From contig CAJYNG010000013.1 in assembly GCA_913775725.1 (NCBI GenBank), forward strand, positions 62,001 to 126,000: 64,000 bases of DNA. The letters run 5' to 3'. Below the pieces are notes generated by a model, which saw nothing but the letters and a program-made list of their open reading frames with translations, was not told the origin of the DNA and did not search any database. The translations under genes and the position numbers were made by a program. Shown here in pieces: positions 41,276 to 62,388 of this stretch; the stretch's first letter is position 1, and every line of letters begins with the position of its first letter. The stretch is from an uncultured Stenotrophomonas sp. (GTDB lineage Bacteria > Pseudomonadota > Gammaproteobacteria > Xanthomonadales > Xanthomonadaceae).

Positions 41276-41289
41276 TGCAAGTTGTTGCA
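41276..41289. promoter_or_regulatory. TGCAA-N4-TTGCA palindrome, site A
   Basis: Exact half-sites around GTTG, in the 264-bp gap between the FAD oxidase and the ABC-F gene. No -10-like hexamer at the 23-nt spacing seen at sites B-E. A second dyad, CGCTACA-CGC-TGTAGCG, lies at 41423-41439 closer to the ABC-F start. Confidence 0.45.
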
Positions 41290-42940: not shown

Positions 42941-42954
42941 TGCAACAAGTTGCA
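42941..42954 (+). promoter_or_regulatory. TGCAA-N4-TTGCA palindrome, site B (autotransporter)
   Basis: TGCAA-CAAG-TTGCA. Exactly 23 nt downstream is AACAAT (42978-42983), a likely -10. The site would be centred near -42 of an autotransporter transcript with a leader of about 130 nt. Confidence 0.6.
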
Positions 42955-43116
42955 TGGGCCCCCGCTCCTTGAGCCGGAACAATTTGAGTCGAAATGGACA
43001 TGCCCGGGCGTCTTTGGCATAGCATCGCCGACAGGCCAAGCTCCCCGGAAGAGAGGGATGACGGCCCATGACGCGGCTGTCCATACCAGACACATTCGTC
43101 CGATCAGGAGTGATCC

Positions 43117-45504
43117 ATGCGCCGTCATTCTGCACGTCCCCAGTGCCTCCTCATGCGCCCCCTCACCCAGTGCCTGCTGTTGGCCCTGGCGGCTCTTCCC
43201 GCAACATCCGTGCTGGCCCGTGACCTTGACGGCCAATCGGCCACCGTGCGTGAAGGCAGCACCGTCGAAGCCTGGAATCTCATCAACGGCTCACGCCTGA
43301 GTGTGGACGGCGGTCGTACGGAGACAATCACCAGCACGGACTCCCAGGTAACGCTGAACAACGGCCGTGTACAAGCGCTCGTCGATGGCAGGGGTGCCAG
43401 CATCGTGCTGCGGGGCAGTTCAACGCTGGATATGACCAACAGCACGCTGCATGACGGCAATGTGGTGGTCAGCGATCTGTCCAGTGCACGCATCACGGGA
43501 AGCACTGTGCGCTCGGTGGGGGCCAACGCCAGGTTCAGCGTCGGCATCTATCTCGACAAGTCCCCCAGCCAACCCGATGCCAACAGCACCGTCATCGTCG
43601 ACGCTTCGTTCGTACGCGCCGAAGCATCACCGGGTGCGGCAATGCTCAGCAATGGCCACGCAGTGCGCCTGCAGCAGGGCACCGCCATCCTGCAGAATGG
43701 CACTCGGGTGGAAGGCGCGAATTCGGGCGTACTACTGTTGGGTGGCACCATCCCGTCCGTACTCGGGCAGCCCATCACCCTGCGCGTGGACAACGCACAG
43801 GTCGCCTCGGACAGTGGGGCCGCCATCTGGGTAGCACCGCGCAGGTCGGTGCGCTACGACATCACCGTCGCCAACGGCTCCCAGCTCTCCGGCGGCGATG
43901 GCCATCTGTTGCTGGTGCGCCCCGATGGCAGTGCAACGGGCGAAGCCGAGGTCCACTTCACGGTGGATGACGCACGCCTTGCCGGCGATATCACCTTCGA
44001 CGCCGACCGCGTTACCGGCAGCCTGGATGTAGTGCTGCGCAACAAGGCGCAGATCGACGGCCGTTTCGCCAACGTCACCACCGCCAGCATCGACAGCGAC
44101 GCCACCTGGCTGATGACCGGCGACAGCACTGTCGGCCATCTCACCCTGGGCGCGGGCGGTACCGTGGCGCTGGGCAATGGCAGCAGCTTCAACACCCTCA
44201 GCCTGGATGCGTTCACCGGCAATGGCGGCACGCTGCTGTTCAACACCCAGCTGGGTGACGACACCTCGCTGACCGACACGCTGGTGATTGCTGGCGATGC
44301 CAATGGCCAAGCCAACGTGCGCGTGCTCAACGCCGGCGGTGCCGGTGCCAAGACCGATCGTGGCATCGAGCTGATCGATATCGGCGGCGCGTCCAACGCG
44401 CAGTTCGATCTGGTCGGCCGTGCGGTGGGTGGGCAGTACGAATACTTCCTGGTGAAGGACGCCAACGGCAACTGGTACCTGCGTTCGGAGCTGGCAACCA
44501 CGCCGGACCCGTGCCTGGCTGACCCATCGCTGCCGCAGTGCAAGCCGATCATTGATCCGGTTGACCCCATTGATCCGATCAACCCGATCCCGGTGCTACG
44601 CCCGGAAGCTGGCGCCTACCTGGCCAACCAGTTCGCGCTGGACCAGATGCTGCGCCACAGCTACCGCGACCGCCAGGGCGGCGCCGCTGCGGTGGATGGC
44701 ATCCGTGGCTGGGCTCGTGTTGACGCTACCCAGAGCAAGCTGGGTGCGGTGGATGACCAGCTCGACCTGCGCGTGGACCGCTCGCGCCTGCAGCTGGGTG
44801 CGGACATCGGCGTGTTCGATGACGGCCGTGGCCGCGTCGGCGTGATGGGCACCGCCGCACGCAGCAGCGCCACCTCGCGTTCGGACGTGACCGGCTTCAG
44901 TGCACGCGGCAAGGTGGAAGGTGGCGCGCTGGGCGTGTACGGCAACTGGGCCAATGATGCGATGTACGTGGATGCCAGCGTGCAGCGCGGCCAGTTCCGC
45001 AACCGCGTGCAGGGCGATGGCCTGGCCGAGGAACGTTACGACTCGGACATCTGGCAGTCGTCGCTGGAAGCCGGTTACCGCTTCGACATCGGCCAGATTG
45101 GCAACACTGCGCTGAGCCTGCAGCCGGAACTGCAGCTGGTCTACACCGATGCCAAGACCGACGCGCATACCGAGACCAACGGCACGGTGGTGCGTGCGCA
45201 GGGCAACAGCGGTCTGTCCGGTCGTGCCGGCCTGCGCCTGCAGGGTGAATCGCGCTCGGCTGCGGGGGCCTCGGTCAGCCCATATCTGGCGGCCAACTGG
45301 TACCGCGATGGCGCCGGAAATGGCATCGCCTTTGACGACGAAGTGTTGAAGGCCGGCATTCCGCGCAACCGTTATGAACTGAGTGCAGGTGCGCGTGTGG
45401 AATTCCGTTCCGGTTTCAGTGCATGGGGCGGGTTTGGGGTGATGCGTGGTGATAGTGGATACCGTGAAGCGACCGGCAATCTGTCTGTGGCCTACAGCTG
45501 GTAA
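43117..45504 (+). CDS. Type Va autotransporter adhesin
   Basis: 795 aa. AGGAG 6 nt upstream fixes the start. A long basic signal peptide ends near VLA-RDL. Residues about 36-460 form a pertactin-like beta-helix passenger with many short T/S/N-rich strands and no protease triad. A proline-rich linker with DPVDPIDPINPIPV (about residues 463-497) leads to the C-terminal autotransporter beta-barrel (about 530-795), which ends in the outer-membrane signature NLSVAYSW. An adhesin or biofilm role is inferred. A strong terminator follows. Confidence 0.93.
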   Translation: MRRHSARPQCLLMRPLTQCLLLALAALPATSVLARDLDGQSATVREGSTVEAWNLINGSRLSVDGGRTETITSTDSQVTLNNGRVQALVDGRGASIVLRGSSTLDMTNSTLHDGNVVVSDLSSARITGSTVRSVGANARFSVGIYLDKSPSQPDANSTVIVDASFVRAEASPGAAMLSNGHAVRLQQGTAILQNGTRVEGANSGVLLLGGTIPSVLGQPITLRVDNAQVASDSGAAIWVAPRRSVRYDITVANGSQLSGGDGHLLLVRPDGSATGEAEVHFTVDDARLAGDITFDADRVTGSLDVVLRNKAQIDGRFANVTTASIDSDATWLMTGDSTVGHLTLGAGGTVALGNGSSFNTLSLDAFTGNGGTLLFNTQLGDDTSLTDTLVIAGDANGQANVRVLNAGGAGAKTDRGIELIDIGGASNAQFDLVGRAVGGQYEYFLVKDANGNWYLRSELATTPDPCLADPSLPQCKPIIDPVDPIDPINPIPVLRPEAGAYLANQFALDQMLRHSYRDRQGGAAAVDGIRGWARVDATQSKLGAVDDQLDLRVDRSRLQLGADIGVFDDGRGRVGVMGTAARSSATSRSDVTGFSARGKVEGGALGVYGNWANDAMYVDASVQRGQFRNRVQGDGLAEERYDSDIWQSSLEAGYRFDIGQIGNTALSLQPELQLVYTDAKTDAHTETNGTVVRAQGNSGLSGRAGLRLQGESRSAAGASVSPYLAANWYRDGAGNGIAFDDEVLKAGIPRNRYELSAGARVEFRSGFSAWGGFGVMRGDSGYREATGNLSVAYSW

Positions 45505-45512
45505 TGGAAATA

Positions 45513-45547
45513 GAACGGCGCCGACATCTCCGGCGCCGTTCTGCTTT
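45513..45547 (+). terminator. Autotransporter terminator
   Basis: GAACGGCGCCG / CGGCGCCGTTC, an 11-bp stem with a 7-nt loop, then TGCTTT. It begins 8 nt after the stop codon. Confidence 0.8.
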
Positions 45548-45641
45548 CTGTAGAGCCGAGCCATGCTCGGCTGCTCTCCGATCAGATTGCGAAAAGCGCC
45601 GCGCTTCGCGCGGTAAGCCGAGCATGGGCTCGGCTCTACAG
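45548..45641. repeat. Composite SMAG element
   Basis: CTGTAGAGCCGAGCCATGC at the left end and GCATGGGCTCGGCTCTACAG at the right face each other. Between them are about 40 bp including GCGAAAAGCGCCGCGCTTCG. The same composite recurs at 45680-45772. Confidence 0.88.
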
Positions 45642-45679
45642 GGGGACTTCTGCGCGACCTCCATTGCACGATGCGCCTT

Positions 45680-45772
45680 CTGTAGAGCCGAGCCATGCTC
45701 GGCTGCTGTCCGACCATGCTGCGAAAAGCGCCGCGCTTCGCGCGGTAAGCCGAGCATGGTTCGGCTCTACAA
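45680..45772. repeat. Composite SMAG element
   Basis: Second copy of the same composite, nearly identical to 45548-45641 including the central GCGAAAAGCGCCGCGCTTCG. Confidence 0.88.
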
Positions 45773-45917
45773 GGACACTGTGCGAATGCTGACGCAATCG
45801 CCTCACTCTGCATGACGATCTTTCGCGCGCATGCAGATTGCAACAAACTTGAATTTGAAACTTTTCTCATTGGTACAGCGGCACCTACGTGCGCATCATG
45901 TGTGCGCCACCGACAAC

Positions 45918-46133
45918 GGGTGGCACGGGCTTGCAATCCCGTTTGGTAACTACGTTGTTTACGCTTGTCTGTCGGCGTCGCTCATCCATCGGGCGGCGTC
46001 GGCAGACATTCTGTCCGCTCGTACATGGCGGGCGGTGTGTGGGGGCCTCGTGCCCGCCGGCGTTTCGCGTAGTTACCACCGGTATTGCAACCACGCACCG
46101 TCCGCCACCCTCGCTGTTAAGCGGGGTGGCCCC
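45918..46133 (+). ncRNA. Structured RNA-like leader, unknown class
   Basis: Nested inverted repeats form one compact fold: GGGTGGC (45918-45924) with GCCACCC (46104-46110); TTGCAAT (45931-45937) with ATTGCAA (46084-46090); GGTAACTACG (45945-45954) with CGTAGTTACC (46068-46077). The enclosed space holds a 16-bp stem (45966-45981 with 45993-46008) and GGCGGGC/GCCCGCC (46027-46033 with 46052-46058). The 16-bp stem is complete only if three G-U pairs are allowed on the plus strand, which favours RNA over DNA. Two small hairpins (46112-46133) precede the ATG at 46159. Confidence 0.55.
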
Positions 46134-46158
46134 TTGCTTCGTACACAAGGACGCCGCC

Positions 46159-46564
46159 ATGACCACGTCGCACTATCCCCACCTGTTTGCCACCTTGGGC
46201 GAGGCCGCCACGCGCCTGCCCGACGATCTGGCGCGCACGCTGGAAAGCACCTTCGCCGCACTGCAGGAAGGCGAAGCACCCGGCACCATCACGCTGCTGC
46301 ACTGCCTGCAGCACATCCGCCAGGGCGACGCCGCCGATGGGCTGGCCCGGCAAAGGCCGCACGCTGGGGCAGCGGCTGGCACTGGCGCGCATCGACCGCG
46401 CCAATGCCGGGCTGACGTTTCTGTTGGAGTTGCTGCACGCTACAGAACGCGTGCGCGTGGATGGCGAGGTCAGCCAGCAGGTAGGCGATGACGCGCGCGA
46501 GGGGTTGCTGCTGGCGTGCCGCGGGCCGGCCGAGTATGTGGATGTGCAGTTGCACGCGGCCTAG
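46159..46564 (+). pseudogene. Small helical protein, interrupted by a +1 frameshift
   Basis: The ATG at 46159 opens a frame with MTTSHYPHLFATLGEAATRL that runs sensibly to about 46350 (...DAADGLAR). From there the coherent protein continues one base later in the next frame (KGRTLGQRLALARIDRAN ... AEYVDVQLHAA) to the stop at 46562-46564. Together they would make about 134 aa, mostly helical, with no signal peptide. One extra C in the CCCGGCAAAGG region explains the break. It may be a decayed gene, a sequencing error or programmed frameshifting. Family not recognised. Confidence 0.6.
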
Positions 46565-46570
46565 CGGCTT

Positions 46571-46645
46571 CTGTAGAGCCGAGCCCATGCTCGGCTTGCC
46601 CGGAACCTGACCGAAGAGCAGCCGAGCGTGGGCTCGGCTCTACAG
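46571..46645. repeat. SMAG palindrome pair
   Basis: CTGTAGAGCCGAGCCCATGC and GCGTGGGCTCGGCTCTACAG facing each other between the frameshifted gene and the end of the minor pilin gene. Confidence 0.88.
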
Positions 46646-46659
46646 GGCCGTACCGGCTT

Positions 46660-47169
46660 TCAATCGTAGGCGGCGGTGACCACGATCTCGGTGGAGATAT
46701 TGCCGGCGTTGATACCACTGGTGTTGGGAATGAAGTAGCCCGCCCGCAGCGGATAAGAGGCCGTCGCACCAGAGACAGCCACCGGAATATCAGTGTCGCC
46801 CTTCTTCAGGTAGGTGTTACCGGTCGCGCCGGCCAGCAGCGCCACCGTCACACCCGTTGCTGGCGTGGTGGCAGCGGTGTTCTTCCAGCGCTGCGGGTCG
46901 CCGTCGGCGGCCGTGCCATCGAAGGACAAGCGCGCGCGGCTGACGCCCACGCAGCCGGTAAAGTTCAGTGCACCAGCCTTCACACTGTTGGCGGCACCTG
47001 GCGTCATCTCATCGGCCTTCACCGGATCCAGTGCAATGGTGGGCGCTGCCAGCGTGCAGGTGCCCGGCAGCACACGGCCGCTGATGGTGAGAGTGGCCTG
47101 GGCGCCTGCGGTCGACGCGATCAGGCACAGCATCGGCACCGCGATCACCTGAAGAAGGGAACGGGACAT
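46660..47169 (-). CDS. Minor fimbrial subunit
   Basis: 169 aa from the ATG at 47169 (AGGAG upstream). Signal peptide ending TAGA-QA. Pilin-type immunoglobulin fold with one cysteine pair (GTCTLAAP and FTGCVGVS) and the C-terminal beta-strand pattern IVVTAAYD that donates into the neighbouring subunit. It is the last gene of the minus-strand fimbrial unit; its start overlaps the usher 3' end region closely, so the two are co-transcribed. Confidence 0.88.
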   Translation of the reverse strand: MSRSLLQVIAVPMLCLIASTAGAQATLTISGRVLPGTCTLAAPTIALDPVKADEMTPGAANSVKAGALNFTGCVGVSRARLSFDGTAADGDPQRWKNTAATTPATGVTVALLAGATGNTYLKKGDTDIPVAVSGATASYPLRAGYFIPNTSGINAGNISTEIVVTAAYD

Positions 47170-47207
47170 GGTTGAACTCCTGTGAACGATGAAAGGAAAG
47201 ACAAAAC

Positions 47208-49790
47208 TCATGGGGCGGTGCTCTCTTCCTGCTCCGGCGTGCCCACCTGCAGGCTCTCCGGTAGTAGCGGCTGCGGCACGCACACCGCCTGGCTCCACGA
47301 CAGCCCGTAGGCGTCAGGCGCATCGGGCATGCGGTAATCGATGCGGCAGCGGTGAGCGCCGTCGGGGTCCACGATCAGCGTGCCCCTGTCGCGCGCACCG
47401 CGCAGCTGGATGACACCGCCCTGCCCGACCGCGCCGGCCGGTGTGCCGTCCTCGGTCTGCACCACTGCGGCAAACGGCAGCGGCTGGCCGAGTGCGTCGG
47501 TGGCATCGATGAACAGGGTGCGCTCGCGGCGCACCTCGAACGGCACGCGCACGATGCCACCGGCGGTCGGCGCCACGCGCTGCGAGGTGCGCAGCAGCTC
47601 CACCTCCAGCGGCAGCCCGCTGGGGTCCAGGTCGATGCTGTTCCAGCGGTAGGGGCTGATATGCGGCAGCAGCGCGTAGCCGTTGCCGGCCACCTTGATG
47701 CCCGCGCCACTGCCTACGCGCGCACCCTGCGCGCCGGGCGCCTGTACCAGCGCGAAGCCCTCGCCCACCGGCGGCCCGAAGTTGATGCCGCCGCCATGCA
47801 GCACCACGCTGCCCGAGGCACCGGCGGTGACGCTGCGGTAGTTGCCCGCGCGGCTGTAGCCCAGGTTCGCGTTGAGCTGGCTGCCCTGCCAGGCCGCGTA
47901 AGCGCTACTGCTGCGCGCGCCGTCGTCGCCCTGGCTGGCCGACAGGCTGTAGCTCAGCGCACGCTGCTCGCCCACGCTGCCGCTCAGGCCGGCCTGCAGC
48001 TGTTGCCCGCGGTCGCTCTGGCTGAGCTGGGTGCTGGCGCGCGGTGCGTTGCTGCTGCGCCCCAGCGGCACGCTCAGGGTGAAGGCGTAGCGGGTGTCCT
48101 GGCGGCCATCACCGGTGCGGTAGCGCAGCGCGGACAGCCCGTAGTTGGCGCGCCGGAAGCTGCTCTGGAAGCCTACCTGGACATCGTTCTGGCCGCGCGT
48201 GCTGTCCCAGTAGGCCACGTGGCCGCCGCTGAGGTACAGATTGCTGCGTTCGCCCACGCGCTGGGAGAAATTGAGCTGGTAGCGCTGCCGGGCGCGCCGC
48301 GCGTAGCCCCAGTCGTCGCTGCGGGCGCGCGCCACGTCGCCCAGGCTGAGGTAGCCGCGCGTGCTGTAGCGGTAGGCGGCCAGGCCGACATTGGTGCCGG
48401 TGCTGGCCACGTAGCGTTGGTAGTTGAGCCGGAAGCTGTTGCCTGTGACGCTGTTGCGGTCATGCAGGCGCGCCTGCGAATGGGTGATGTCCGCGCCGAA
48501 CGCGCCCACTGCGGTGTTGATCGCCGCACCGGCCAGCACGGCCTGGTAGCCCTGCCCCAGCTGGGCGCCGCCCAGCACGGTGAGCCGGTTGCTCAGGCCG
48601 CGCACATAGGTGGCCTCGCCGAAGCGCACCGGGTCGAGCCGGCCGCTGCTGTCGCGCACCGCGCCGGCGGTGAACGCAAACCGCGAAGCCCCGGCGCGCA
48701 GCGCCTGCGGCACTGCCGAGAAGTTCACGGTGAAGCGCTGCACGCGGCCATCGGGCTCGGTGACGGTCACCTCCAGGTCGCCGCCGAAGTTGGTCGGGTA
48801 CAGGTCCTCGATCGCGAACGGCCCGGGCGCCACGTTGCTCTCGTGGATGAGGTTGCCGTTCTGGCGGATCGCCACCACCGCGTTGCCCTCGGCGATGCCA
48901 CGCACCACCGGCGCATAGCCACGCAGCGAGTCGGGCAGCATGCGCTCGTCGCTGGCCAGGCGCACGCCGGTGAAGGCCACGCTCTCGAACAGCTCGCCGC
49001 CGGTATTGCCTTGGCCCAGCAGTAGCTGGCTGTTCCATGCGGCAATGTCGCGCTGCACGTGGCTGCTGATCACCTCGTGATGGGTGCCGTAGCTGCCGTG
49101 GGTGAGTGAGGATCGGTGCCGCAGGCGCCATGGCCCGATGTTGAATCCGGTGCGCAGGCCCAGGTAGCTGCTGTCGCGGCCTTGGCCGCGCTGGTGGTTG
49201 GCGCTGTAGTCGATGAAGGCGGCGGTGATGCCATCGTCGCGTTGTGCCGGTGCCACGTAACCGCGCGCCACGCTGGCCAGGGCCGCCTGCGGCAGGCCGA
49301 TGGCCAGTTCCAGCGCGCCGCTGTCGAAGGTGACCGTGGCGCCCTCGATCATCGCGGGCAGGTCCACGCAGGCTGCGCTGTCTGCCTCCACGGCCTCCAG
49401 CAGCGCCGCCTTCAACGGCAGCGTGCGGATCAGCGCGGCGGGCAGACACGGGGTGGCGATATGCGGATCTGCCGAGGCCCGGAAGCGGATATCGCGGCTG
49501 GACTGGTATACCCCGTTGACCTTCACGTCCACCGCGTAGTCGCCTGGCGGCAGCGGGTTGCCGTTGGCGTAGCGGCGCATGTCGATGGCGTCACCGCCGA
49601 TCAGGAAACCTTCACTGAACTCGACCGCTGGCGTGGGCGCCGCGCGGGCGAATGCGCCGAGGGACAGCATCAACGCGGTGGTGATGCCTCGGGAGAGCGC
49701 GGACGTTGCGACGGTGGCGTGGGCTGAAGTGGGGGACACGATGCGTGCAATCGCCGTGGGGGCGACGATTGATCGGAGAGGGGTGAGCAT
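47208..49790 (-). CDS. Fimbrial outer-membrane usher
   Basis: FimD/PapC-type usher, 860 aa if started at the ATG at 49790. N-terminal domain FSEGFLIGGDAIDMRRY, a 24-strand beta-barrel with PGPFAIEDLYPTNFGGDLEVTV in the plug region, and a C-terminal domain with GTLIVDPDGAHRCRIDY. The start is uncertain: a likely -10 (TACCAT) overlaps this ATG, in which case the in-frame GTG at 49739 (843 aa, 34-residue signal peptide) would be used. Its chaperone is on the other strand at 51678. Confidence 0.93.
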   Translation of the reverse strand: MLTPLRSIVAPTAIARIVSPTSAHATVATSALSRGITTALMLSLGAFARAAPTPAVEFSEGFLIGGDAIDMRRYANGNPLPPGDYAVDVKVNGVYQSSRDIRFRASADPHIATPCLPAALIRTLPLKAALLEAVEADSAACVDLPAMIEGATVTFDSGALELAIGLPQAALASVARGYVAPAQRDDGITAAFIDYSANHQRGQGRDSSYLGLRTGFNIGPWRLRHRSSLTHGSYGTHHEVISSHVQRDIAAWNSQLLLGQGNTGGELFESVAFTGVRLASDERMLPDSLRGYAPVVRGIAEGNAVVAIRQNGNLIHESNVAPGPFAIEDLYPTNFGGDLEVTVTEPDGRVQRFTVNFSAVPQALRAGASRFAFTAGAVRDSSGRLDPVRFGEATYVRGLSNRLTVLGGAQLGQGYQAVLAGAAINTAVGAFGADITHSQARLHDRNSVTGNSFRLNYQRYVASTGTNVGLAAYRYSTRGYLSLGDVARARSDDWGYARRARQRYQLNFSQRVGERSNLYLSGGHVAYWDSTRGQNDVQVGFQSSFRRANYGLSALRYRTGDGRQDTRYAFTLSVPLGRSSNAPRASTQLSQSDRGQQLQAGLSGSVGEQRALSYSLSASQGDDGARSSSAYAAWQGSQLNANLGYSRAGNYRSVTAGASGSVVLHGGGINFGPPVGEGFALVQAPGAQGARVGSGAGIKVAGNGYALLPHISPYRWNSIDLDPSGLPLEVELLRTSQRVAPTAGGIVRVPFEVRRERTLFIDATDALGQPLPFAAVVQTEDGTPAGAVGQGGVIQLRGARDRGTLIVDPDGAHRCRIDYRMPDAPDAYGLSWSQAVCVPQPLLPESLQVGTPEQEESTAP

Positions 49791-49817
49791 GGTAGGAACG
49801 AATGGAACTACACCCCA

Positions 49818-49831
49818 TGCAATAACTTGCA
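49818..49831 (-). promoter_or_regulatory. TGCAA-N4-TTGCA palindrome, site C (usher)
   Basis: TGCAA-TAAC-TTGCA on the plus strand. Reading on the minus strand, TACCAT (49794-49789) follows after exactly 23 nt. It gives the usher-minor pilin unit its own promoter, separate from the adhesin gene. Confidence 0.55.
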
Positions 49832-49906
49832 GATTGCAGTGCAGCACTGCGATGTCTGCATTGCGGCTTAGTTGCGCTTCAGCAACGCGCCGCCCATGCA
49901 GGGCAG

Positions 49907-50896
49907 TTATCGGTAGTCGGCGACGAGCACCGCTTCGCCGGTGATCACGCCAGTTACCAGCGGGCCGGCCGTGCGGTGGTAGCGCGCCTCGAACGGAATG
50001 GCCTGCTGGCCCTTGGCGGAAAATCCGTACGACCACGCCTGGCCCAGCTGCAGCGGCAGGCCGCCACGCAGCAGCTGCACCTGCACGCCGCCGGCGGTGG
50101 AACCCGCGCCGGGCGCCAGATCGCTGCCGGTATTGCCCGGCTGGTTGGCGTCGGTCAGGGTGAGGGTGACATCCACATTGGCCATCGGGCAATTCATGGC
50201 CACATCGAAAGTAGACGGCTTGGCGGTGCTGTCGGCCACGGCCATGTCATTGGCCACTACGTCGTCGAGCGTGTGGGTGGCGTTGGCGAGGGTGCAGGTG
50301 ACCGGGGCAACGTTCAACTCCAGCGTGAAGGTGTGGCGGAAGGGATTGGCGGAGTTTCCCTCGGGCCATACGTCTACCGTACCAAGGAAGGTGCGGGGCA
50401 CGCTTTCCATCGCGCCGCCACGGAAGAAAACGCGTATCTGTACGTAGTGCCCCATGCTGGTCGTTGCGCTCAGCACAGGACCCGGGTTTCGATTCAGCTG
50501 GCCATTTCTCAGTGGTATGCGCACGCCTGTTGTGTTTGTGCGGCCAATGCCATGCACGAAGGCCACCAGAGGCGAGCGCGGCCCGAAACTGTAGCCCGGC
50601 ACCGTTGCCCCATCCACGGTGACGTCGCGCTCATAGGTCAAGCCGGTAAGCTGCATGTTGACCAGGAACGCGGTCTGCCCTGCTGGACATTCATAGGTGT
50701 CTGGCAGCGACACACCCGTTCCTGAATATTGTGCGCCGGGCCGGTCCAGGTTGGGCATGTTCCTGACAAGTTGTGAATCGTGATCAGTCAGTTGAAGACG
50801 TGTGCACGCGCTCGCACTCCCCACGCCCAGTGCAGTCAGCATGACTGCACAGACGACGATGGCGACACGTGGGCGCGGGGGGATCAGGCATCGCAT
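49907..50896 (-). CDS. Two-domain fimbrial tip adhesin
   Basis: 329 aa, AAGGAA upstream. Signal peptide ending ASA-CT. Residues about 30-190 form an N-terminal receptor-binding-like domain with one distant cysteine pair. The C-terminal half (about 195-329) is a pilin domain with the cysteine pair VTCTLANA / MNCPMANV and the ending GEAVLVADYR. This two-domain layout is typical of tip adhesins such as FimH; the receptor is unknown. It stands just before the usher gene but has its own upstream palindrome. Confidence 0.85.
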   Translation of the reverse strand: MRCLIPPRPRVAIVVCAVMLTALGVGSASACTRLQLTDHDSQLVRNMPNLDRPGAQYSGTGVSLPDTYECPAGQTAFLVNMQLTGLTYERDVTVDGATVPGYSFGPRSPLVAFVHGIGRTNTTGVRIPLRNGQLNRNPGPVLSATTSMGHYVQIRVFFRGGAMESVPRTFLGTVDVWPEGNSANPFRHTFTLELNVAPVTCTLANATHTLDDVVANDMAVADSTAKPSTFDVAMNCPMANVDVTLTLTDANQPGNTGSDLAPGAGSTAGGVQVQLLRGGLPLQLGQAWSYGFSAKGQQAIPFEARYHRTAGPLVTGVITGEAVLVADYR

Positions 50897-50958
50897 GGCG
50901 ATTCCTTCATAAGCAGGTCACGGGTGCGCAGTCTATGTGGCACGCCCGGCCTCTCCCA

Positions 50959-50972
50959 TGCAACTAGTTGCA
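50959..50972 (-). promoter_or_regulatory. TGCAA-N4-TTGCA palindrome, site D (adhesin)
   Basis: TGCAA-CTAG-TTGCA, a perfect 14-bp palindrome. On the minus strand TAGACT (50935-50930) follows after exactly 23 nt, and the adhesin start lies about 27 nt beyond the expected transcript start. Confidence 0.6.
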
Positions 50973-50996
50973 AACACGACAACGCCCGCCTGGCTT

Positions 50997-51010
50997 TGCA
51001 AGTTATTGCA
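50997..51010 (+). promoter_or_regulatory. TGCAA-N4-TTGCA palindrome, site E (major pilin)
   Basis: TGCAA-GTTA-TTGCA. On the plus strand CACACT (51034-51039) follows after exactly 23 nt; the pilin start is about 56 nt beyond the expected transcript start. Sites D and E lie 24 bp apart between the divergent genes. Confidence 0.6.
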
Positions 51011-51101
51011 TTCCCCCTACGTTACCGCCTCCGCACACTGGCGCCACTGTCCGTGCCGATTGCGCCGGGCACTGTCCTGTCACAACTTCCGGGAACCCAC
51101 C

Positions 51102-51614
51102 ATGACCACCAACATCCGCCTGCTGTCCCTCGCCCTGCTCACCGCTGCCGCCCCGTCGGCGTTTGCCGAAAAGCTGGAAATCACCGGTGAGCTGCTCAAC
51201 TCCACCTGCGCCGTGCAGTCCACCGGCGGTGCCATCACCGTGCCGATGGGCAAGGTCGACCTGGCCTCGGTCAATGCCGACGTGCGCGCCGGCCAGAAGA
51301 ACTTCGCCATCGCACTGGACTGCACCGGTTCGGGCACCGCGCAGGACGTGGGCGTGCGCTTCGGCGGCACCCCCGATGGCAGCACCGGCAACCTGGCGCT
51401 GACCGCCACCTCCACCGCCAGCAACGTGGGCGTGGCCCTGTACGATGCCGCCGGTAACCAGCAGAAGATTGGTGAAGATCCCACCGTGTGGGTGACCATC
51501 GCTGCCGGCGGCAGCGGCCAGCTGGACTACAGCGCGTGGTACGCCTCGCCGGGCAAGAACGCCCAGGCCGGCACCGCCAATGCATCCGGCGATTTCGTGG
51601 TGCTCTACAAGTAA
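51102..51614 (+). CDS. Major fimbrial subunit
   Basis: 170 aa from the ATG at 51102. Signal peptide ending AFA-EK. Classical pilin: ITGELLNSTCAV, the second cysteine in ALDCTGSG, and the C-terminal donor strand ASGDFVVLYK. As first gene of the plus-strand unit and followed by a hairpin that could limit read-through, it is the likely shaft protein. The frame is open upstream to 50937 but that part spans the promoter. Confidence 0.92.
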   Translation: MTTNIRLLSLALLTAAAPSAFAEKLEITGELLNSTCAVQSTGGAITVPMGKVDLASVNADVRAGQKNFAIALDCTGSGTAQDVGVRFGGTPDGSTGNLALTATSTASNVGVALYDAAGNQQKIGEDPTVWVTIAAGGSGQLDYSAWYASPGKNAQAGTANASGDFVVLYK

Positions 51615-51677: not shown

Positions 51678-52412
51678 ATGACTTCCCGTGCATCGACATG
51701 GGCGTTGCCGTCGGCGCTCGCGCTGGCCGCGACGCTGTGCGCCGCGCCCGCATCGGCGGCCGTCACCATCCAGGGCACGCGCGTGATCCACGACGCCAGC
51801 CAGGGCCGCGACACCACGGTGAAAGCCAGCAACAGTGGCGATGCGGTGGCCATGACCCAGGTGTGGATCGACGATGGCGACAGCCGCGCCCGCCCCGAGC
51901 ACGTGGTGGTGCCGTTCCGGCTGACCCCGGCCGAGCCGCGCCTGTTGCAACCCAAGCAGGGCCAGGCGTATCGCATCACCTACGCACCGCGCCCGTCCGA
52001 GGCGCCGTTGCCGGGCGACCGCGAGTCGCTGTTCTATTTCAACCTGTTGGATATTCCGCCCAAGCCCAGTGATGCGGCCGGCAAGAACCTGCTGCAGTTT
52101 GCGGTGCGCACGCGCATCAAGCTGTTCTATCGCCCCGCCGGGCTGCCGGGCAATGCACGCGACGCGGCGGCCACCCTGCAATGGTCTGCCGATGGTGATG
52201 CCCTGCAGGTACGCAACCCGAGCGCGTACCACGTCTCGTTGAGTTCATTGACGCTGGCCGATGGCCGCAGCGTAGACGTGGACATGATCGCGCCGGGGGC
52301 ACAGGTGCGCTATGCGCTGCCGGAAGGTGCAGCGATGCCAGCAACGGTGGCGTTCAAATGGCTGGATGATTACGGCACGCCCAGTGAGGCCGAGGCGCGC
52401 GTTGATCGGTAA
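51678..52412 (+). CDS. Periplasmic fimbrial chaperone
   Basis: PapD-like chaperone, 244 aa, signal peptide ending ASA-AV. Two Ig domains. The first holds the pilin-binding strand (LTPAEPRLLQPKQGQAYRI) and the family signature SLFYFNLLDIPPKP. The lysine in RTRIKLFYRP corresponds to the pilin-carboxylate anchor. It serves the subunits on both strands. Confidence 0.95.
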   Translation: MTSRASTWALPSALALAATLCAAPASAAVTIQGTRVIHDASQGRDTTVKASNSGDAVAMTQVWIDDGDSRARPEHVVVPFRLTPAEPRLLQPKQGQAYRITYAPRPSEAPLPGDRESLFYFNLLDIPPKPSDAAGKNLLQFAVRTRIKLFYRPAGLPGNARDAAATLQWSADGDALQVRNPSAYHVSLSSLTLADGRSVDVDMIAPGAQVRYALPEGAAMPATVAFKWLDDYGTPSEAEARVDR

Positions 52413-52439: not shown

Positions 52440-52453
52440 GGCAATGACTTGCA
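52440..52453. promoter_or_regulatory. Imperfect TGCAA-N4-TTGCA site F
   Basis: GGCAA-TGAC-TTGCA, one base off the palindrome, between the chaperone and the hybrid kinase. No -10-like hexamer at the 23-nt spacing, so its role is doubtful. Confidence 0.3.
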
Positions 52454-52511: not shown

Positions 52512-55505
52512 ATGGCGTCACCCTTGGGCTCCGTGCTTGCCACCCTGCAAGGCTTGCAGCGCCGGCTGCTGTTCGGCGGCGGTGCCATCTTGACCCTGCT
52601 TCTGCTGGCCGCCGGCTGCGCGGCGTTGTGGCTGCGGCTGGAAACGGTGCACCTCAACGAGCGCGAAGCGCTGCAGCGCGGCCAGCAGACGGTGGATCGC
52701 TACATTGGCGAGCGCAGGCGGGCCTACGTGGCCAGCTTGAACACCAACGCCACGCTGTGGGCCACCCAGCAGACCGCACTGGTGGCCGGTGGCCTGCCTG
52801 TTGCGGCCCGCTTCTCAGCACAGGATGGCCAGGCCGGTGTGGTGGCACCCGGCGCCCTGTCGGTCCCCTGGCTGGCGTTGTCCCCGCGCGAGGGCCGTCT
52901 TCCACCACAGGCGGAGGCGGCGTACCTGGGCATGGTGCAGACCTATTCGGCGTACATGGCCGCCACCGTAGCGGCGCAGGATTCGCCCACCTCCTTGATC
53001 TCCTTCGCCTTCGAACCGGAAGGGCGCCTGTTTGCGATCGCCGGGCTGCATGATGAAGCGCAGCTGCTGCAACTCATGAAGGTGCAGACCCGTGAACAGG
53101 CACTGGCCGCGCTGGCACAGACCGCCGATGCCGGCTGGCGGTCGGCGGGTGCGGACTCCGAGCTTCAACTGGATAGCGGCCAGCTGCGCGCCTACTTCGG
53201 CCGCAATCCGTTCACCGGCGAGGATGCACTGGTCACCCAGATGCGCCTGCGCAGCAATGGCGCGCCCTTCATCAACCGGCTGACCTTTGAACCGCTTCAA
53301 AGCCTGCGCGAGCGGTTGGAGGAGGCCAGCCCGGGGATGTGGGTGGTGCTGGACCGGCAGGGAAACGATGTTCTGCGCAGCGCTGCAGACGCTGCGATTT
53401 CCGGGCCTGCGCTACGCGCCGCGCCATCGCCCCGGCCTACGCTATTGGCACTGCCTGCCGGCCGTGCCTTCGTGATGTCCGCACCCTTGCAGGGCATCGA
53501 CTGGACGCTGCTGCGGCTCTACCGCTGGACTGATATCTGGACGGCGCAGCAGACCTATCTGCTCGGCGGTGGGCTGGCCCTGACCGCCCTGCTGGCCGCA
53601 CTGTGGACGCTGTTGCTGCTGGTGGACCGGCGCGTGCTGCGGCCGGCGCTGGAAGAAGCCGCACGGGTGCATGAAAGCGAAGCGTTGAGCCGCACGTTGA
53701 TCGAAACGTCGCCGGTCGGCCTGTGCCTGCTCGACCAGCAGAGCGGGCAGTTGATCCTGCACAACCAGGCACTGGAGCAGCTGATCGGTGACACCACCGG
53801 CAACCTGTTGGACGCGCTGGTCGGCCGCCTGGTGCAACGCGTTGACGGCCAGGTACACGGGCAGCGGTTCGAGGCGCCGTCCGCAGATGAGCACGGCCCA
53901 TCGCGCTATCTGCAATCCATCGTGGCCGCCGCGCGCTACCAGCGGCGGGCGATCTGGGTCTGCGCGGTGACCGATGTGACCGCACAGACCGAAACCCAGC
54001 AGCGTCTGCTGGATGCACGGCGGCATGCCGAACGGGCCCAGCACGATGCCGAGGCCGCGGACCAGGCCAAGACCGCCTTCGTGGCAATGATCAGCCATGA
54101 AATACGCACCCCTTTGAGCGGCGTGCTCGGCCACCTTGAACTGCTTGCCCGCCAGACCATGCCGGCGGCGGCACATACGCATGTCACGCGCGCGCGCAGC
54201 GCGGCCGATGTGCTGCAGGGGCTGGTCAACGACACCCTGGATCTTTCCCGCATCGAAGCCGGGCTGATGACGCTGGAGCCGGCGCCTTTCGATCCGCGTT
54301 CGCTGCTGCAGCAGACGGCGACACTGTTCGAGCCACAGGCCACCGCGAAGGGCCTGCGCCTGGAGCTGCACACCGGCGATGCGCTGGGACCGGCCTACGT
54401 GGCCGACGCAGGTCGCTTGGCGCAGGTGATCAACAACCTGGCGGGCAATGCGGTGAAGTTCACGGCATCGGGAACGGTGGCGGTCAGCGTTGATGCCTTG
54501 GTGCGGCCCGATGGCAGCGAGTGGCTGCACGTGGAAGTGCGCGATACCGGCCCGGGCATCGATGCCGAAGCACAGGCCGTGTTGTTCAAGCCGTTCGTGC
54601 AGGTCGGTGCCGGCTCGGCTCGGCAGCACGGCGGCAGCGGCCTGGGGCTGGCCTTGTGCCAGCGTTTCGCCGAACTGCTCGGCGGCACCCTTGGCGTGCG
54701 CAGCACCCCGGGTACCGGCAGCGTTTTCCACCTGGACATTCCGGCACGCCGGACCACCGCCGTGGCAGGCACGCCACCACGGCTGGTGCCTGTCGAGCAC
54801 GTGCATCCGTCGGGCGGTCACGCGTTGTTGGTGGATGACAGCGTGATCAGCCGCGACGTGACGCTGGGGCAGCTGCATGCGCTGGGTTGGCAGGTCACCC
54901 TCGCGGCCGACGGCGAGGAGGCGTGGCAACGCTGGCGCGAAGGCCGGTTCGACATCGTGCTGACTGATCTGAACATGCCGCGCCTGGACGGATACGGGCT
55001 GGCCCGGAAACTGCGTGCGGATGACCCCTCCATCCCCATCGTCGCACTCACCGCCAATGCGATGCCCGAGGACGCGCAGCGCGTACGCGAGGCCGGCATG
55101 TCCACGCTGCTGCTGAAGCCGCTCGACCTGCCGTCGCTGCAGGCCGCGTTGCATGGATTCGACCTCGATCGCTCGGCACAGGCGCCATTACCTCCGGTGG
55201 TGAGCGCGGCGGTTCAGCGGCAGATGCGCGAGGCGTTCCTGCAGACCGCGCACCGCGACTACGCGGCGCTGACCCAGGCGCTGGACAGTGCCGATGCACC
55301 GGCCATGATCGATCAGCTGCACAGCTTCGCCGGCGCGCTGGTATTTCTGGGAGAGGCCCAGGCAGCGCGCAGCTGCCAACAGGCCGAACAGGCCCTGCGC
55401 AGCACCGGCGCGACAGATGCGACATCGAAGGCGATGGTCATTGAGGCCATCGCGTTGATCGCGGCTAGCATCGAACGTCAGGTTGCCGCGCAGCAGCAGG
55501 CATGA
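52512..55505 (+). CDS. Unorthodox hybrid sensor histidine kinase
   Basis: 997 aa. Two membrane helices (about residues 18-42 and 355-378) bracket a periplasmic sensor region of about 310 residues that I do not recognise. Then come a PAS-like stretch (about 395-490), HisKA with His529 in MISHEIRTPLSG, HATPase with N, D and G boxes (DTGPGID, GGSGLGLALC), a receiver domain with Asp819 in LTDLNMP, and an HPt domain with His937 in QLHSFAGAL. The layout resembles RcsC/BvgS/RocS kinases. No response regulator with a DNA-binding domain is nearby. It is 99 bp after the chaperone. Confidence 0.93.
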   Translation: MASPLGSVLATLQGLQRRLLFGGGAILTLLLLAAGCAALWLRLETVHLNEREALQRGQQTVDRYIGERRRAYVASLNTNATLWATQQTALVAGGLPVAARFSAQDGQAGVVAPGALSVPWLALSPREGRLPPQAEAAYLGMVQTYSAYMAATVAAQDSPTSLISFAFEPEGRLFAIAGLHDEAQLLQLMKVQTREQALAALAQTADAGWRSAGADSELQLDSGQLRAYFGRNPFTGEDALVTQMRLRSNGAPFINRLTFEPLQSLRERLEEASPGMWVVLDRQGNDVLRSAADAAISGPALRAAPSPRPTLLALPAGRAFVMSAPLQGIDWTLLRLYRWTDIWTAQQTYLLGGGLALTALLAALWTLLLLVDRRVLRPALEEAARVHESEALSRTLIETSPVGLCLLDQQSGQLILHNQALEQLIGDTTGNLLDALVGRLVQRVDGQVHGQRFEAPSADEHGPSRYLQSIVAAARYQRRAIWVCAVTDVTAQTETQQRLLDARRHAERAQHDAEAADQAKTAFVAMISHEIRTPLSGVLGHLELLARQTMPAAAHTHVTRARSAADVLQGLVNDTLDLSRIEAGLMTLEPAPFDPRSLLQQTATLFEPQATAKGLRLELHTGDALGPAYVADAGRLAQVINNLAGNAVKFTASGTVAVSVDALVRPDGSEWLHVEVRDTGPGIDAEAQAVLFKPFVQVGAGSARQHGGSGLGLALCQRFAELLGGTLGVRSTPGTGSVFHLDIPARRTTAVAGTPPRLVPVEHVHPSGGHALLVDDSVISRDVTLGQLHALGWQVTLAADGEEAWQRWREGRFDIVLTDLNMPRLDGYGLARKLRADDPSIPIVALTANAMPEDAQRVREAGMSTLLLKPLDLPSLQAALHGFDLDRSAQAPLPPVVSAAVQRQMREAFLQTAHRDYAALTQALDSADAPAMIDQLHSFAGALVFLGEAQAARSCQQAEQALRSTGATDATSKAMVIEAIALIAASIERQVAAQQQA

Positions 55506-61764: not shown

Positions 61765-62388
61765 GTGGCGTCACTGAAGTACACGGGGCTGGCAGCACTG
61801 TTGCTGGCCCCGGTGGCGGCCCACGCCAGCACCGATCCCGCCGTGCAGGTGTTCGACCTGTACGCGCAGGTGATCGTGCACGGAGACCCGGCCGCGCAGG
61901 CAACGCTGGCGCGTTACCTGCCGGGCGAGCAGGGACCGGCGATGGCAACCGCGCTGGCCACCATGAGCCATCTGGACCAGGCCCCCGAGCTGGCCGATTG
62001 GCCGCAGGCCGCCGCAGCAGTGCGCACGCGGCAGCAATCGGTACATTGCAGCACCGACAGCGTGCGCTACCTACAGGCCGGGATTGCCAACGTCTCCTTT
62101 CGTTGCCGCCTGCCGGATCTGAGCGCATTGCTGCAGGTGTATCGACAGCATCCGGTGCCGTTCAATGGACCACACCCACCGCAGATGGCGATACCGCTGG
62201 CCACCGCGTATACACGGATGATCGCCGTGGCACCGGATCGCGAGAGAGTCGTCAGTGTGTCGTTCCAGCGCGACCATGACGGCGACGCCTGGCGCATCGG
62301 CAACCCGACGCCGCTGTTGAGCGCAGTTGCCGATGCCTTCCTGCCATTCTTTGAATGGAATGAACACCTGCTCGACGAGACCCGATGA
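61765..62388 (+). CDS. Secreted protein of unknown function, paralogue 2 of 3
   Basis: 207 aa. Start is the GTG at 61765, right after the stop of paralogue 1. Signal peptide ending AHA-ST, then AVQVFDLYAQVIVHGDPAAQ and the cysteine pair VHCSTD ... FRCRLPDL, matching its neighbours. The C-terminus (FLPFFEWNEHLLDE) parallels APFEDWMQD of paralogue 1. Function unknown. The stop overlaps paralogue 3 by 4 bp. Confidence 0.82.
   Translation: MASLKYTGLAALLLAPVAAHASTDPAVQVFDLYAQVIVHGDPAAQATLARYLPGEQGPAMATALATMSHLDQAPELADWPQAAAAVRTRQQSVHCSTDSVRYLQAGIANVSFRCRLPDLSALLQVYRQHPVPFNGPHPPQMAIPLATAYTRMIAVAPDRERVVSVSFQRDHDGDAWRIGNPTPLLSAVADAFLPFFEWNEHLLDETR

Follow-up and report, generated by a model that had tools for sequence, protein, structure and literature searches.

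Here we report that a palindromic sequence, TGCAA-N4-TTGCA, stands at a fixed distance from -10-like hexamers upstream of adhesion genes in Stenotrophomonas. It was noticed in a 64,000-nucleotide stretch of DNA from an uncultured Stenotrophomonas sp. (positions 62,001 to 126,000 of contig CAJYNG010000013.1, assembly GCA_913775725.1; this whole stretch is referred to below as the window), where it precedes the genes for an autotransporter, a fimbrial usher, a candidate tip adhesin and a major pilin. Judged from its spacing and from the genes behind it, the palindrome is almost certainly a genuine activator operator of adhesion genes, and the protein that reads it is predicted to switch on chaperone-usher fimbriae and autotransporters across the genus. 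We assign this protein, with a probability of roughly 0.7, to the response regulators (RRs) of the NarL/FixJ type, of the sort represented by RcsB, FimZ and BvgA. For Stenotrophomonas, a hospital opportunist, the analysis provides a precise operator together with the geometry of its promoters, lists the adhesion genes under it and names two candidate regulators. Among the titles and abstract openings considered, no paper dealt with the palindrome or with a regulator for these genes.

Operator sites and promoter geometry

Exact copies of the palindrome occur at window positions 41276, 42941, 49818, 50959 and 50997, with a one-mismatch copy at 52440. With up to one mismatch allowed, shuffled versions of the window had 2.20 sites on average, and six or more were reached in 1 of 100 shuffles. 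The whole genome (G000; 28 contigs, 4,559,886 bases) contains seven exact copies, against one for the reversed control, and five of the seven lie inside 9.7 kb of the window adhesin cluster (post hoc binomial 9e-13).

Four of the window sites (42941, 49818, 50959 and 50997) share one arrangement, in which the palindrome is abutted by a weak -35-like hexamer (TGGGCC, TGGGGT, TGGGAG and TTCCCC at the four promoters), followed by 17 nt and then by a -10-like hexamer of the form NANNNT, 23 nt from the palindrome (AACAAT, TACCAT, TAGACT and CACACT, respectively). Reckoned from the predicted -10 hexamers, this order of elements would place the centre of the palindrome near -42. The autotransporter operator, TGCAACAAGTTGCA (42941..42954, plus strand), is followed by TGGGCC at 42955-42960, the 17-nt spacer and AACAAT at 42978-42983, and equal geometry is found at the orthologous gene in loci L054 and L104. 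The usher operator, TGCAAGTTATTGCA (49818..49831, minus strand), has its TACCAT at 49794-49789, and the tip adhesin operator, TGCAACTAGTTGCA (50959..50972, minus strand), has TAGACT at 50935-50930, both likewise in L054. At the major pilin promoter, TGCAAGTTATTGCA (50997..51010, plus strand) is followed by CACACT at 51034-51039; L054 keeps this site with the hexamer CAAACT.

Both remaining window sites were rejected as further promoters of this kind. The exact palindrome at 41276..41289, to which no strand was assigned, lies between a glcD-like gene and an ABC-F gene and has no -10-like hexamer at +23 in either direction; its surroundings find a full-length match in L054 only. The one-mismatch site GGCAATGACTTGCA (52440..52453, plus strand) lies upstream of a hybrid kinase gene and has CTGCAG at +23, which is not -10-like, and genome G005 keeps one of its half-sites, the other being degenerate. 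Therefore, neither is supported as a -42 site. In G026, an exact site lies near the kinase gene, but its hexamer stands on the opposite side, toward a 460-residue open reading frame (ORF) without a Pfam match.

The other two exact copies in G000 are an identical pair, TGCAATCGATTGCA, lying 8.7 kb apart on another contig (L006/L007, G000:C22:228433 and 237136) and recurring in many genomes of the genus, also in L065. The genes near the pair look LacI-like by eye and the sequence has a central CG; the pair may be a LacI-type operator pair. We treated this TCGA form as an apparently different system rather than as a member of the adhesion operator set, and it was taken out of the spacing, tandem and composition counts before counting; it was retained in the 91-genome co-occurrence counts, in the 30-site control outside the genus and in one row (r31) of the locus listing.

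Conservation and target genes across the genus

Among 41 genomes of the genus that were screened, 38 had a match, and all exact non-TCGA sites (n=62) were read in 12 of them, which were picked for having sites and thus are not a random draw. In these 12 genomes, NANNNT is found at +23, reading in one direction, for 45 of the 62 exact sites, against a mean of 3.9 and a maximum of 14 at the 73 other spacings (binomial 4e-35, with related sites counted separately). A larger set of fetched loci, in part picked because their sites cluster, has 68 non-redundant sites, of which 45 fit, and the other spacings have a mean of 4.4 and a maximum of 12. As a negative control, exact sites from other genera of the family were considered, and NANNNT stands at +23 in only 1 of 30 (7 of these 30 are of the TCGA form). 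Twelve of the 17 non-fitting sites were inspected, and 8 of those lie within ORFs of at least 100 codons with a GC content at third codon positions above 0.7.

Fifty promoters selected for an exact palindrome and NANNNT have flanks of the composition TTTGCAAC-W-W-N-TTGCATGG, an AT-rich centre and a -10 hexamer that is mostly nAnACT. The palindrome thus agrees with a layout of two inverted heptads of about 14 bp (consensus TTTGCAACTAATTGCATGG), which a dimer would cover, and at the 45 fitting sites it is adjacent to the -35 position, with a 17-bp spacer. In the proposed mechanism, the operator would lie directly upstream of a weak -35 element (TGGnnn), followed after 17 bp by an nAnACT -10, and it is from this position that we infer activation.

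Homologues of the window autotransporter, usher, tip adhesin, pilin or chaperone lie downstream of 31 of the 45 fitting sites; these include autotransporters at further loci (L110, L118) and, in G035, a separate homologue of the tip adhesin (L234). Fitting sites in other genomes precede CS1-like and DUF1120 fimbrial genes and, in G022, a type IV pilin gene. Targets that are not obviously adhesins include a DUF805 gene in G038 and, in both G018 and G022, an AraC/GlxA-type gene.

Some promoters carry a second site. In a set of 106 non-redundant sites, second copies matching in 8 or more of 10 bases were commonest at offsets 10 (8 cases), 22 (8) and 37 (6), against an average of 0.45 per offset; offset 10 is favoured by self-overlap of the half-site, and offsets 37-38 include adjacent divergent promoters, as in the window. 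In seven of the nine offset-22 rows, the exact copy is the distal one, and the proximal copy lies 22 bp downstream, followed by 23 nt and TANNNT (TAACGT in L031); the other two rows are the reverse reading of L055, itself one of the seven, and a site in G022. DUF1120 genes lie downstream of four of the seven tandem promoters, and operons that include a Fimbrial_CS1 gene lie downstream of two; behind the seventh (L123), the gene that comes first is without a Pfam match. Some CS1- and DUF1120-type fimbrial promoters would bind a second dimer 22 bp further upstream, at about -64.

This organization resembles that of the BvgAS system of Bordetella, the regulon of which includes fimbriae and the autotransporter pertactin. 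For the fha, fim3 and ptx promoters, the 14-bp BvgA site is described as two inverted heptads, with dimers 22 bp apart, the proximal one abutting a poor -35 element (PMC7250471). The same source gives the primary, strong fha site as TAAGAAATTTCCTA (PMC7250471); the BvgA half-site TAAGAAA differs from the TGCAACT found here.

Several features do not fit a uniform adhesion operator with a BvgA-like arrangement. Upstream of the four window promoters, 3-5 of 10 bases match at the tandem position, so that their sites are single, unlike the BvgA tandem dimers; in G013, the exact site of the CS1 locus (L048:3394) lacks both the -10 and the tandem geometry; and 14 of the 45 fitting sites have no homologue of the window adhesion genes behind them, or the gene was not determined. 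With one mismatch allowed, moreover, G000 contains 74 sites against 61 for the reversed control, which is near background; the signal therefore resides in the exact motif. Of 143 genomes from outside the genus, 37 contain a match, mostly a single one (six in G123), and the exact sites there look like chance. These last two observations are what can be said for the palindromes being chance occurrences or functionless repeats. For the exact -42-type sites, this explanation is hardly credible, being contradicted by the clustering at adhesin genes, by the fixed spacing, by the recurrence at autotransporters of other loci, by the gene class of the targets and by the control from other genera.

The first-pass annotation of this DNA had placed five exact palindromes and one with a single mismatch at the six positions given above, with the 23-nt spacing and the four hexamers at the four adhesion promoters, and these were confirmed. 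Its proposal of one activator-type operator common to the autotransporter, usher, tip adhesin and major pilin promoters is supported, and the random scatter through coding DNA that it had named as a refutation is not what the genomes contain.

Candidate regulators

The same annotation had suggested a single activator, possibly of the CRP/FNR type, with its gene outside the window. The location agrees with our results, since none of the 13 response-regulator matches in G000 lies on the window's contig, the window genes having been scanned for CRP/FNR domains only in part. The shared activator-type operator likewise stands, and the family is less well supported. A CRP/FNR-family activator bound at -41.5 would account for the 5-4-5 layout and the position at about -42, class II geometry being typical of that family, and nothing beyond these points to it specifically. 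Its consensus sites, however, are TGTGA-N6-TCACA for CRP and TTGAT-N4-ATCAA for FNR, and the half-sites here, which were defined as TGCAA/TTGCA, match neither TGTGA nor TTGAT. The 22-bp tandem copies and the RcsB/FimZ-like regulator genes with a site in their own promoters point elsewhere, and no CRP/FNR domain was found among the scanned proteins near sites, a part of all such proteins. We therefore consider a CRP/FNR-family activator improbable and, from the half-sites, the layout and the linked regulator genes, favour a regulator of the NarL/FixJ type.

Two such regulators of G000 are the leading candidates, and the chance that one of them is the activator in this genome is somewhat better than even. 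Both the orphan RR on contig C7 (50983-51660) and the RR on contig C8 (492435-493061) have the REC-GerE architecture (Pfam), which they share with RcsB and FimZ of enterobacteria; RcsB is the closest PDB structure to both, and both carry the recognition helix TVSTQK. The best NCBIfam models are FimZ for C7 (79.7 bits, equivalog cut-off 271) and RcsB for C8 (60.4 bits, cut-off 235), so that, unlike FimZ and RcsB, neither reaches an equivalog cut-off among the NCBIfam models listed. FimZ activates fimbrial genes, and the RcsB box differs from the operator seen here.

The C7 regulator, next to which no kinase was noticed, has a one-mismatch -42 site of the same kind at its own promoter. The orthologues read were 17 of 18 matches (60-100% identity), which, C7 being found in 42 of 91 genomes, amounts to 17 of 42 promoters; all 17 have TGCAANNNNTTGGA, 23 nt and an nAnnnT hexamer, and the bases between mostly diverge. 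The eighteenth match (38% identity, G026) has no such site. In the receiver of C7 (L079:10984-11661 and orthologues), the acidic pair is A-P (own clade) or D-P instead of D-D, so that, unlike FimZ and RcsB, C7 lacks one or both acidic-pocket residues, and the phospho-acceptor D and the switch K are kept. The C8 regulator retains the acidic D-D pair as well as the phospho-acceptor D and the switch K, and its gene shares four bases with that of a HisKA-HATPase-REC-Hpt kinase, to which it would be coupled. Both the identity of the activator and its phosphorylation we infer from such features. The C11, C10 and C28 response regulators of G000 were set aside, their loci (L067, L069 and L070) having no sites with up to one mismatch.

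Regulator genes also lie near sites in other genomes. G001, G013, G014 and G040 each encode a REC-GerE regulator at a distance of 4.4-4.6 kb from a site; a hybrid kinase adjoining it was recognized in G013 and G040 through Pfam and in G014 through BLAST. In G012, a site between an RR gene and an usher gene is no more than 65 bp from the RR gene, which has a kinase-like gene adjacent to it. In G038, the distance between site and RR gene is 3.3 kb, and this RR gene has its own upstream one-mismatch -42-type site, TCCAAGTAGTTGCA-23-CAAGGT. In G022, a regulator is convergent with a BvgS-like kinase, and two exact sites lie 329 and 366 bp before its ORF.

The distribution of the regulators parallels that of the sites in part. 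The C8-type RR was found in 53 of the 91 genus genomes and the C7-type in 42. A 16-base pattern has on average 4.3 matches in genomes with either type (n=57) and 1.8 in those with neither (n=34), and more than two matches occur in 52 of the 57 and 12 of the 34, respectively, in counts that include the TCGA pair and ignore relatedness and are thus confounded by phylogeny and genome size. All 14 genomes with zero matches lack both RR types.

Apart from this confounding, several observations weigh against a reading by the C7 or C8 regulators. The 12 genomes that have more than two matches and neither RR type (G018, G022, G044, G066 and others) show that the link between RRs and sites is not exclusive; therefore, either another protein reads the operator there or the link is indirect. 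One half of the C7 promoter site reads TTGGA in every one of the 17 orthologues, and no site with up to two mismatches was found in the 3.6-kb locus around the C8 RR gene. The STQK helix is also present in another RR of G022, some C7 orthologues have SSQK, and the two sites before the G022 regulator lack the -10 geometry. Finally, G018 and G022, which lack both candidate RRs, have a -42-type site (an exact palindrome, 23 nt and TAGCCT) upstream of the AraC/GlxA-type gene (L188:8433-9503 and L063:9960-11030), a possible alternative regulator.

These last genomes bring up the alternative that a different DNA-binding protein, for example of the AraC/GlxA, TetR or LacI type, reads the site and that the RR genes are merely among its targets. 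It would explain the sites in genomes without both RR types as well as the AraC/GlxA-type gene with its own site. We nevertheless regard it as unlikely: the palindrome ends just before the -35 element, in the position of an activator, direct repeats are the usual targets of AraC-type proteins, LacI-type repressors bind so as to overlap the promoter, and the AraC/GlxA-type gene with a site was seen in two genomes only, the remaining genomes not having been searched for it.

Within the preferred reading by a NarL/FixJ-type RR, one tentative scenario is that the adhesion operator is fixed across the genus and its reader has been exchanged, with a canonical RcsB/FimZ-like RR in most species and different RRs in a small number; the reader in the S. 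maltophilia group might be an orphan RR that has a degenerate receiver and switches on both itself and the adhesins without ordinary phosphorylation. Operator conservation with regulator turnover may thus have a case here. The same genus offers a parallel in the SMF-1 fimbriae and in BfmAK, a biofilm two-component system, of S. maltophilia (PMC11089167); the available part of that account describes no comparable operator or regulon.

Genes of the adhesion cluster

The autotransporter gene (43117..45504, plus strand) encodes AC_1, Pertactin and Autotransporter beta-domain regions (Pfam, NCBIfam). The usher gene (47208..49739, minus strand; Pfam on ORF 47208-50192, and NCBIfam) has its likely start at a GTG at 49739, and matches to the usher query include [Pseudomonas] hibiscicola ATCC 19867 and Stenotrophomonas pavanii. 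The candidate fimbrial tip adhesin (49907..50896, minus strand) has a Fimbrial domain at its C-terminus (Pfam). On the plus strand follow the genes for the major fimbrial subunit (51102..51614; Pfam on ORF 50937-51614, and NCBIfam) and for a PapD-like fimbrial chaperone (51678..52412; Pfam). A regulator gene between the autotransporter and the usher was considered and rejected, as the 212-residue ORF there encodes the minor fimbrial subunit (46660..47169, minus strand; Pfam Fimbrial, 1.2e-05 on the longer ORF 46660-47298, with a FimG-like match below cut-off). The hybrid histidine kinase (52512..55505, plus strand; PAS-HisKA-HATPase-REC-Hpt, Pfam) is possibly the kinase upstream of the regulator.

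A small gene at 46160-46564, between the autotransporter and the minor pilin, appears as two overlapping frames, in a frameshift-like manner, and a similar stretch precedes the kinase gene in L062. Several copies of an inverted repeat, GTAGAGCCGAGC...GCTCGGCTCTAC, occur at 45545-45775 and 46573-46645, and we take these to be probably the known repetitive extragenic palindromic (REP)-type elements of Stenotrophomonas.

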